A stretch of DNA of 64,000 nt, from assembly GCA_029565735.1 (NCBI GenBank), contig JAKQNO010000092.1, positions 1-64,000 of the forward strand, written 5' to 3'. The translations under genes were made by a program, and so were the position numbers. This stretch comes from a bacterium. GTDB taxonomy: Bacteria; Oederibacteriota; PGYV01. Each line of letters opens with the position of its first letter. Positions within the stretch are counted from its first letter, which is position 1. The notes beneath the pieces are model-generated. The model worked only from the letters and a program-made list of their open reading frames with translations. It had not been told where the DNA came from and did not search any database. Below are positions 12,331-14,882 of this stretch, piece after piece.

Positions 12331-13785
12331 ATGCTAAAAGCGCTTTTGTATGTCAGGGTTTCAACCACAGACCAAGAAGGCGGGTATTCGCTGGATGCCC
12401 AGGAAAAACTGGGCCGTGACTACGCTGCCAGAAACGGGCTTACCATAGAGAAAACCTGGAAAGTTTCTGAATCCGCTTATAAACTGGACAGGAAATACTT
12501 CACGGAATTGATTGAATATACCAAGAAAAACAACATTAAAAATATCATATTTGACGTGCCTGACAGGATGACCAGGAACATGTATGACTTCCTCAAAATT
12601 GACGAGCTCGCAAAGAAACAGGATGTTGTCATCCACTTTTCCCGCGCAAACAAAACATACAGCAAAAACTCAAAACCTGAAGATGAATTCATGCTTGGTA
12701 TAGAAGCGCTTGTAGCCAGGAAATACTCAAGTGACATATCAGCAAGGGCTAAAATAGGCATGGCTTCAAAGGTTGAAGATGGCGGGTATTGCCATGTTGC
12801 GCCTGTCGGCTATTTAAACAACATAATAACCCACAAGATAGAAATAGACCCTGTAAAAGCTCCGTTTGTCAAAAAGGCCTTTGAGATGCTCGCATCCGGC
12901 CACTATTCCCTGAATATGATCTGCGACACCCTATATGAGCAGGGTTTCAGGAGCAAGCGCGGCCACAGGATGAGACGCGGCAGGATACAGGATATGTTTA
13001 AAAATCCCGTGTACTACGGAGCCATGCGCTGGCATGGCAAAGTATACCCTGCCGATCACACTCCTATTATCTCAAAGGAGTTGTTTGACAAAGTTCAGGA
13101 CATAACCAGGAAAAGGCCGATAGTTACAAACAAGCAGGAGCGCTTCCCTTTGAACAGCCTGGTCTCCTGCGGCATTTGCGGGTGCAGGGTTATAGGCGGC
13201 ATCTATAAAAAGAAGTACCGCTTCTATCACTGTACTTTTTCAAACGGCAAGCATAAGGATTATCATTACATCCGGGAAGACAAACTGGAGCAGATGATGG
13301 CTGCGCACCTGGAAAAAGCCATACCCCCGGATGCGATGCTGGACTATATAGCAGAGACCATACGCAGGGATTCAAGCACCTCACTGGAATATGCCGAAAA
13401 CCGCCTTAAAAACCTTTATAGCGACAAAAAAACGCTTGAGGCAAGGCTGGGCCGCCTGTATGACGACAAGCTGGATAACAAGATTACTGAAGGCTTCTGG
13501 CAGGCTAAGGATGCGGATATAAAGAGGCAGATGTCTGCCATAGAGGCTGAAATAAGGGAATTGACCCGCAATAACCCCGAGACCGTGGAAAAGGGCCTGA
13601 CAGCACTCGAACTCGTAAAAGGCCTTATGCCGCAATATAAAAACGGGGATTTGAAGAAAAAGGCGGAAATCCTGAAAACCGTACACTCGAACTTCACCTA
13701 CGATGGAGAAAACCTAAGCCCAGTATACAAAAAGCCCTTCGACGTATTCGCCGAAGGGCTTGTTTGTACTAAATGGCGGGAGTGA
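12331..13785 (+). CDS. Large serine recombinase (site-specific integrase)
   Basis: This 484-residue protein has a resolvase catalytic domain with the nucleophile Ser11 (YVRVSTTDQ) and the Arg motif DRMTRN. A recombinase domain follows, with the core QGFRSKRGHRM and VYYGAMRWHGK. The zinc-ribbon has SCGICGCRV with only three obvious Cys (the third in YHCTF). A long coiled coil follows (about 345-425), then a C-terminal domain. It cuts and exchanges attachment sites for integration and, with helpers, excision. The last codons (W, R, E and TGA) lie inside the 3' end of tRNA-Asp, read antisense, which points to insertion at that tRNA. A terminator hairpin for the tRNA operon lies within its last 60 bases. 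The other attachment site was not found in the window. Confidence 0.9.
   Translation: MLKALLYVRVSTTDQEGGYSLDAQEKLGRDYAARNGLTIEKTWKVSESAYKLDRKYFTELIEYTKKNNIKNIIFDVPDRMTRNMYDFLKIDELAKKQDVVIHFSRANKTYSKNSKPEDEFMLGIEALVARKYSSDISARAKIGMASKVEDGGYCHVAPVGYLNNIITHKIEIDPVKAPFVKKAFEMLASGHYSLNMICDTLYEQGFRSKRGHRMRRGRIQDMFKNPVYYGAMRWHGKVYPADHTPIISKELFDKVQDITRKRPIVTNKQERFPLNSLVSCGICGCRVIGGIYKKKYRFYHCTFSNGKHKDYHYIREDKLEQMMAAHLEKAIPPDAMLDYIAETIRRDSSTSLEYAENRLKNLYSDKKTLEARLGRLYDDKLDNKITEGFWQAKDADIKRQMSAIEAEIRELTRNNPETVEKGLTALELVKGLMPQYKNGDLKKKAEILKTVHSNFTYDGENLSPVYKKPFDVFAEGLVCTKWRE
13729..13761 (-). terminator. Terminator of the tRNA operon, inside the recombinase gene
   Basis: AAGCCCTTCG (13732-13741) and CGAAGGGCTT (13752-13761) form a perfect 10-bp stem with a 10-base loop. 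On the minus strand a T-run follows. It lies 13 bases beyond the tRNA-Asp CCA end, so it should end the tRNA transcript. The same bases are the recombinase coding end on the plus strand. Confidence 0.75.
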
Positions 13786-13850
13786 CGAGGCTCGAACTCG
13801 CGACCTTCTGCGTGACAGGCAGACGCTCTAACCAACTGAGCTACACCCCC
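13774..13850 (-). tRNA. tRNA-Asp (GTC)
   Basis: A 77-base cloverleaf on the minus strand. The acceptor is GGGGGTG paired with CACTCCC, then G73 and an encoded CCA. The anticodon loop is CTGTCAC with GTC, and the T-loop is TTCGAGC. It is the last gene of the tRNA cluster. Its final 12 bases overlap the recombinase 3' end, so it is the likely attachment site. Confidence 0.95.
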
Positions 13851-13902: not shown

Positions 13903-14105
13903 ATGGTGGGCGCTGAGGGATTCGGTCACCTCGGCGCTATCTGCGCCTCGTCGACCCCGCTCATTCGCCTGTCGCGCGCTTCCTGCGCGCTTTTCTGACA
14001 TTTAGTCAGCGGCGAATTCGTGTTCGAATCCTGCCCAATCCATGCTCTTCTTTTTCTATGAACTATTCTACTATAGTTATTTTATGGTGGGCGCTGAGGG
14101 ATTCG
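13903..14105. repeat. Structured element A bounded by copies of the tRNA-Val 3' end
   Basis: Twenty-two bases at 13903-13924 repeat exactly at 14084-14105, the 3' end of tRNA-Val up to its T-loop. After the first copy comes a GC-rich part. It has a hairpin (GGCGC at 13933-13937 with GCGCC at 13943-13947) and a 7-bp stem (ATTCGCC 13963-13969 with GGCGAAT 14011-14017) that encloses two more hairpins with 5-base loops (13974-13990 and 13995-14009). An outer 7-bp stem closes it (GGATTCG 13918-13924 with CGAATCC 14025-14031). Its first 44 bases resemble element B at 14605-14647. Confidence 0.7.
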
Positions 14106-14161
14106 AACCCCCGACCCTCTGCTTGTAAGGCAGATGCTCTAACCAACTGAGCTAAGCGCCC
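14085..14161 (-). tRNA. tRNA-Val (TAC)
   Basis: A 77-base minus-strand cloverleaf. The acceptor is GGGCGCT with AGCGCCC, then A73 and an encoded CCA. The anticodon loop is CTTACAA with TAC. A second copy of its 3' end lies 181 bases downstream, at element A. Confidence 0.95.
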
Positions 14162-14529: not shown

Positions 14530-14565
14530 AACTGCCGCGGGCTAAAGACCCGCGTCTACCAGATC
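14530..14565. repeat. Dispersed palindromic repeat, copy 1
   Basis: A 36-base unit starting AACTGCCGCGGGCT with an internal palindrome GCGGG-7 bases-CCCGC. A near-identical copy lies at 14847-14882. Degraded relatives are seen at about 14211-14231 and 30931-30955. A small REP-like family is likely. Confidence 0.6.
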
Positions 14566-14772
14566 TTTTCTCTATATTTTCTATGGAGCTGGCGAGAGGA
14601 CTTGGCCACCTCGGCGCTGTTGCGCCTCCTCGGCCCCTCCTCGTTCGCTTCATCCTCGCTATTCGCTCGGCGCTCTCTCGGTTCAAGCCCTCTTATCGGA
14701 CTTACAACCTTGTCTCAATGAGCTTTACTTATCTTTTCTCTATATTTTCTATGGAGCTGGCGAGAGGACTTG
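14563..14772. repeat. Structured element B bounded by copies of the tRNA-Thr 3' end
   Basis: Forty-two bases at 14563-14604 repeat exactly at 14731-14772. The second copy covers the tRNA-Thr 3' part up to the T-loop plus 21 bases beyond it. Between them, 14605-14647 is closely similar to the start of element A, including the GGCGC/GCGCC hairpin (14613-14626). AGAGGACTTG (14595-14604) and CAAGCCCTCT (14684-14693) can pair at nine of ten positions, again as an outer stem that copies the tRNA T-arm. Confidence 0.65.
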
Positions 14773-14826
14773 AACCTCCGACCATCTGATTACAAATCAG
14801 ACGCTCTACCACTGAGCTACGCCAGC
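14752..14826 (-). tRNA. tRNA-Thr (TGT)
   Basis: A 75-base minus-strand cloverleaf. The acceptor is GCTGGCG with CGCCAGC, then T73 and an encoded CCA. The anticodon loop is TTTGTAA with TGT. It is first in the cluster Thr-Tyr-Gly-Val-Asp; its 3' part is duplicated 168 bases downstream. Confidence 0.95.
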
Positions 14827-14846: not shown

Positions 14847-14882
14847 AACTGCCGCGGGCTGAAGACCCGCGTCTACCGGATC
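14847..14882. repeat. Dispersed palindromic repeat, copy 2
   Basis: Same 36-base unit as at 14530-14565 with two or three differences and the internal palindrome kept. It lies between the tRNA cluster and rlmB. Just after it, at about 14905-14945, stands another repeat (TTCGCTTATGCTTAACTGC) that recurs twice near 28,450-28,535. Confidence 0.6.

Follow-up and report, generated by a model that had tools for sequence, protein, structure and literature searches.

We describe a family of non-coding elements, 70-180 nt long, that lie next to tRNA or tmRNA genes and carry, in the order of reading, the tRNA, a spacer, an inverted copy of the tRNA's T-loop and T-stem (b'), a core with covarying stems, and a direct copy of the tRNA from C56 to CCA. 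Two of them, elements A and B, lie in the window, by which we mean the whole 64,000-nucleotide stretch of Oederibacteriota DNA that was analysed. Comparative sequence evidence indicates that the element is mobile and derives its ends from whichever target it enters, as judged from empty sites in congeners, duplications of variable length with one fixed edge, and ends that fit the neighbouring tRNA. Our main reading, to which we give a probability of about 0.55, is that these are non-autonomous mobile elements of the kind known in Escherichia coli as tRNA-linked repeats (TLRs) or RtT, copied by a polymerase with template switching or reverse transcription.

The tRNA genes of the window are on the minus strand, in the transcription order Thr, Tyr, Gly, Val and Asp, and the element therefore lies 3' of its tRNA (Table 1). 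Element A (14084-13903, minus strand), behind tRNA-Val, is flanked by an exact 22-bp direct repeat of the tRNA 3' end (13903-13924 and 14084-14105, 181 from start to start). Between the target copies are a spacer with little conservation from element to element, the 9-mer b' GGATTCGAA (tRNA-Val has its reverse complement, TTCGAATCC), and a GC-rich core. The minus strand of 13903-14084 folds at -67.2 kcal/mol (z -5.7), and none of 200 dinucleotide shuffles does as well. A sequence-only reading of this DNA had already reported the repeat, the structured GC-rich part and an outer stem copying the T-arm of tRNA-Val. All three hold, with stems that covary across the family, and the outer stem can now be described more precisely as the inverted copy of the T-loop and T-stem 3' strand (14031-14023) paired with the direct C56-to-CCA copy (13924-13904).

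Table 1. Features of elements A and B and their host tRNA genes in the window.
Feature	Position	Strand	Basis
tRNA-Val(TAC), host of element A	14085..14161	-	ARAGORN and Rfam
Element A, target copy 1 (host's C56-to-CCA end + 1 nt)	14084..14105	-	exact 22-bp repeat
Element A, spacer from tRNA to inverted copy	14032..14083	-	sequence; differs among relatives
Element A, inverted copy b' GGATTCGAA, 5' strand of P1	14023..14031	-	R2 match 14031-13918; family-wide specificity for own tRNA
Element A, core	13925..14022	-	covariation in A5; models R2 and R3
Element A, P2 ATTCGCC/GGCGAAT	14017-14011 with 13969-13963	-	encloses two hairpins
Element A, P3 GGTC/GACC	3' of P2; final C = 13924	-	
Element A, target copy 2 (direct tRNA-Val C56-to-CCA copy + 1 nt), 3' strand of P1	13903..13924	-	exact repeat; absent from congeners
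tRNA-Thr(TGT), host of element B	14752..14826	-	ARAGORN and Rfam
Element B, target copy 1 (42 bp: 21 nt of tRNA-Thr + 21 nt downstream)	14731..14772	-	exact repeat
Element B, insert (5' filler, inverted copy GAGGGCTTGAA, short-form core)	14605..14730	-	R1 and R3 matches; empty site in G001 and G002
Element B, target copy 2 (42 bp)	14563..14604	-	exact repeat; single copy in congeners

Behind tRNA-Thr, element B (14772-14563) repeats the plan of element A, with a 42-bp direct repeat around a core that the two share, as the sequence-only reading had proposed, and a fold that also stands out from its shuffles (z -4.0). An integrase-borne tRNA island, with a recombinase gene inside the repeats, was considered and rejected, since no ORF of at least 80 aa was found between the repeats.

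Comparison of the window's genome (G000) with two congeners (G001 and G002) shows that the presence of the element differs at most loci. The Val-TAC, Thr-TGT and Arg-CCT sites are filled in G000 only, Pro-CGG and one Met gene are filled in G001 only, and G002 lacks the element at Ser-CGA and at the other Met gene. At the Thr locus, both empty genomes carry a single 42-bp target, with small differences, then CTGGTAGACG, and the flanks join cleanly. The duplications measure 22 bp (Val), 34 bp (Pro-CGG), 42 bp (Thr) and 44 bp (Arg-CCT), and at Gln-CTG of G001 an exact 60-bp duplication takes in the tRNA's terminator, the element lying between both terminator copies. Their left edge is fixed at T55/C56, while the right edge varies (22-60 bp measured, more in tandem cases) and in most cases falls at or near CCA. 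At several loci the tRNA's terminator precedes the element, so that co-transcription with the tRNA is not assured. The Ser-CGA cores of G000 and G001 are 97% conserved, and tandem arrays consist of near-identical units. In G003, the core sits in the T-loop of four tandem tRNA-Arg pseudogenes upstream of an intact tRNA-Arg (L153 1-2501, contig C40), part of this array being masked with N. Another core lies in the anticodon loop of a tRNA-Gln fragment, after U33 (L094), and a further copy within a T-loop (L085).

Two familiar types of element were rejected on these grounds. A remnant of an integrase attachment site does not fit a duplication that takes in downstream spacer, nor ends that change with the tRNA, and a classical MITE or other DNA transposon derivative would have constant terminal inverted repeats and a duplication of fixed length, whereas here the ends are target-specific and the duplication spans 22-60 bp.

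Further copies are present in the genome of the window (2.47 Mb). BLAST with the Val element located them behind Ser-CGA, Met, Gln-TTG and Gln-CTG, a search of 35 tRNAs for a repeated 3' end brought in Arg-CCT and another Met, and R1, a sequence model from alignment A4, contributed Leu-GAG and a tRNA-Asn that bears a group I intron. Beyond it, a scan of 84,980 genomes for the core pattern gave matches in Goldiibacteriota, Omnitrophota and one Deltaproteobacteria MAG; every match lies at a tRNA gene or a tmRNA, barring contig ends. R1 matched in 9 of the 45 genomes from the phylum of the window, in 24 of 285 Omnitrophota genomes and in 4 of 46 genomes from the phylum of the Deltaproteobacteria-labelled MAG. 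A Goldiibacteriota record (L067) agrees with G003, which belongs to the same order as the window, in both the element and the arrangement of the tRNAs. Among the 79 R1 matches checked, 60 have a same-strand tRNA or tmRNA within 400 nt upstream, and most of the remainder lie at contig ends, in tandem arrays or at tRNAs that are interrupted or bear an intron, or stand alone but keep a tRNA 3' end; L106, L148 and L151 are copies without an upstream tRNA. Most relatives come from fragmented MAGs, and the models were built from the sequences found. BLAST of phages and plasmids with a relative's sequence and a pattern scan of viral contigs returned no copy.

Empty orthologous sites, duplicated targets and about 60 copies linked to tRNAs bear out the earlier idea of a tiny mobile element, and the linkage of copies to tRNA genes with a duplicated 3' end, on which that idea depended, holds for nearly all of them. 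Its proposal that tRNA 3' ends are the targets is likewise supported; the fixed edge, however, is the T-loop and not the 3' end. Similarly, the term tRNA-derived suits the ends but not the core, which is not tRNA. What goes beyond that reading is that the ends are rewritten for each tRNA, that the T-loop edge is fixed, and that this arrangement has a precedent in E. coli, the tRNA-linked repeats or RtT.

The fit of b' to its own tRNA was measured at 53 independent loci of many tRNA kinds. At the two most variable T-loop positions, b' agrees with its tRNA in 53 of 53 and 52 of 53 loci (19.6 and 27.1 expected when tRNAs are shuffled), and the mean agreement over eight positions is 7.30, compared with a shuffled maximum of 5.94; because R1 holds a consensus b', its matches are biased to copies that bear a b', but not to the right one. 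The fit weakens beyond the T-loop and the first T-stem pairs. In the Omnitrophota genome G060, the cores behind Leu-CAG and Gln-CTG are 98% identical, one extra insert aside, yet their b' sequences, GGAGTCG and GGATTTG, differ, and each matches the tRNA next to it. Such a difference can hardly come from mutation alone and indicates that the ends are rewritten from the target. The same pair makes it unlikely that b' is a fixed guide carried by the element. We also rejected b' as a primer-binding site of the retroviral type, as it starts at the T-loop and usually stops short of the CCA complement.

The direct copy, too, often matches its tRNA without a fault as far as CCA, and in most relatives 18 of 18 positions are identical to the tRNA 3' end. 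In two cases (L226, Val; L105, Ala) it includes a CCA that the tRNA gene itself does not have, whereas copies of other CCA-less tRNAs are also without CCA. The two exceptions hint at an RNA source, but may reflect later loss of CCA from the gene.

Between these ends, the stems of the core covary. In the long form, pairing of P2 is complete (100%) across the six sequences of alignment A5, and both partners change in five of its seven pairs. In the short form (21 sequences), pairing reaches 100% in P1 and 98.8% in P2b, with a covariation score that no shuffle attains. Of the non-standard P2 cells, 56 of 72 are G-A or A-G, like tandem sheared pairs. G-U makes up 2 of 262 standard pairs in P2 and P2b, compared with 30 of 508 in the acceptor and T stems of the hosts (Fisher p 0.0004; a post hoc test on GC-rich stems), a scarcity that favours pairing at the DNA level or palindrome copy-correction.

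The closest parallel is found in E. coli, where TLRs (Egan and Landy 1978) number 22 copies at 10 loci (reviewed in PMC8144298). Like TLRs, which follow tRNA or 5S rRNA genes, the present elements lie immediately downstream of a tRNA gene on the same strand, occur in tandem and may sit between two terminators. The 3' end of a TLR is identical to the 18-19 bp at the 3' end of its host gene; here, the copy starts at C56 and runs for 21 nt, and the identity extends over 22 and 42 bp in the window. The differences are another core, distant phyla and, shown for the present family, a target-fitted inverted copy, empty sites and duplications.

RtT (RF00391) resembles our elements in having a closing stem made of an inverted and a direct tRNA 3' end (Tyr, Pro, Lys, Arg). 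Indeed, the E. coli tyrV repeats, which Rfam calls RtT, begin with the inverted copy GGGGAAGGAT and end with AATCCTTCCCCCACCACCA, and behind the Pro, Lys and Arg tRNAs of E. coli, Klebsiella and Providencia the ends of RtT likewise fit the adjoining tRNA, the Arg copy being truncated and known from BLAST only. The E. coli rrnB TLR (L228), which is enclosed by two copies of the terminator of its gene, has a weak closing stem and no perfect inverted copy. RtT covariation has been reported to frame a tandem GA (PMC8250186). A 12-nt tandem-GA string, GAGCGAAGCGAG, is common to RtT and the present family when the two are aligned, with a score that is not significant, and GGGCGAGAAC variants of our family resemble GGATGAGAAC of RtT. 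RF00391 gave no match to the window at the gathering score, nor to six relatives even at E 5, R1 and R3 gave no significant match to RtT, and R2 gave a marginal one (16.3 bits, E 0.083). The element therefore acts like a TLR and agrees with the TLR definition where this can be tested, but falls outside RtT as represented by RF00391. On sequence grounds it may be a far relative of the E. coli TLRs or a look-alike, homology not being proven.

Two other systems share part of this behaviour. Integrative elements of tRNA genes, such as genomic islands and tycheposons, also lie between duplicated tRNA 3' ends; the present family differs in being gene-free and only 70-180 nt long, in ends that change with each tRNA, and in a duplication that may include downstream spacer. 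Mitochondrial double-hairpin elements and GC clusters are likewise small, non-coding, palindromic and mobile DNA whose mover is unknown, and we know of no tie between them and tRNA T-loops, nor of target-fitted ends.

How could such an element spread? Insertion occurs beside tRNA or tmRNA genes in the orientation of the tRNA, which remains whole, and we infer copying by a polymerase rather than cut-and-paste. In our proposal, the strand complementary to the tRNA would be opened at the T-loop, and its end would prime copying of the conserved core. The growing strand would then fold back on the tRNA's own T-arm, producing b', and rejoin at a variable downstream point, producing the duplication. 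These steps would be compatible either with a template switch at a replication fork or with reverse transcription; template switching is slightly more likely, given the G-U deficit and the duplicated untranscribed flanks. An RNA function is not needed to explain the pattern. Against the polymerase reading stands the observation that duplications mostly end at or near CCA, which a purely random second break does not predict.

This very observation would suit a SINE-like retroelement, in which a CCA-ended RNA is reverse-transcribed by a resident reverse transcriptase at a T-loop nick, as in target-primed reverse transcription. The fixed 3' junction, with variable duplication and 5' filler, and the CCA of L226 and L105 also speak for it. 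It is nevertheless rather unlikely, as several duplications take in untranscribed downstream DNA, with a terminator in the 60-bp one at Gln-CTG, copies of other CCA-less tRNAs have no CCA, and G-U pairs are very few. The near-absence of G-U in covarying stems would be at home in an enzyme acting in trans on folded single-stranded DNA, either a transposase of IS200/IS605 type or a tyrosine recombinase as on integron attC sites, for which the 7-nt hairpin loop of the tRNA gene as target and the lack of an ORF in the element also speak. We consider this unlikely, since insertion of the IS200/IS605 type does not duplicate 22-60 bp of target, and rewriting of both ends would not be expected from site-specific recombination.

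Less likely again, the repeat could be a host regulatory RNA, processed in the manner of tRNA 3' ends and retained as a regulator, with ordinary duplication and gene conversion accounting for its spread. Transcription of TLRs is documented in E. coli, where RrB binds both Hfq and CsrA and a regulatory RNA role has been proposed for RrA/B/F (PMC8144298); the often perfect direct copy and the conserved Ser-CGA core would agree with this. However, presence shifts between congeners at most loci, the tRNA's terminator often comes before the element, and conversion leaves a target-matched inverted copy unexplained. Finally, the copies inside tRNA loops (L094, L153 and L085) bring to mind an intron-like RNA that splices out of them. 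This is very improbable, as the hosts of L094 and L153 are pseudogenes beside an intact tRNA and Rfam intron and ribozyme families match neither the window at the gathering score nor six relatives at E 5.

To our knowledge, the E. coli TLRs have had no accepted origin or function for more than 45 years. The same anatomy in distant phyla, with empty sites, a fixed T-loop edge, duplications and rewritten ends, opens TLRs to study as mobile DNA. It also suggests that doubled terminators, as at E. coli rrnB, may stem from duplication of the target's own terminator, as at tRNA-Gln-CTG of G001. It is tempting to speculate, as a tentative extension that we hold to be possible rather than probable, that TLRs and RtT would form one ancient and widespread SINE-like class in bacteria, whose short RNA or single-stranded DNA core copies itself into tRNA T-loops and rebuilds both ends from the target. 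Mobile elements with ends copied from the target are rare, and the present case is a warning that repeats of tRNA 3' ends need not signal integrase islands.

Several other features lie at the same tRNA genes. A second dispersed palindromic repeat, GCCGCGGGCTNAAGACCCGCGTCTACC, occurs between the tRNAs of the window (14537-14560 and 14854-14877), with exact copies at other tRNA loci of G000 and its congeners and one copy inside a second, partial element behind tRNA-Gln-TTG. The window also encodes a 484-aa serine-recombinase-like ORF (12331-13785) that ends within the 3' end of tRNA-Asp (13774-13850); the tRNA-Asp flank is different in G002, and a separate integrative element may sit there. In the flank of tRNA-Val(GAC), G001 and G002 carry repeats of the tRNA-Val 3' end that have no core (GCGCCCACCATATTTTAAAA...) and that form a tandem in G002; these are possibly scars or another class of tRNA 3'-end repeat. 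An element follows a tRNA with a group I-like intron at L092 (G000, contig C70) and at L114 (G060), and the tRNA-Asn of G001, compared with L092, is free of both intron and element. In Omnitrophota (L109, L120 and L129), another palindromic repeat, of the type TTCTGCTTCGC...GCGAAGCAGGAA, begins right after CCA, so that tRNA 3' ends in this phylum seem to be a hot spot for several repeat families.
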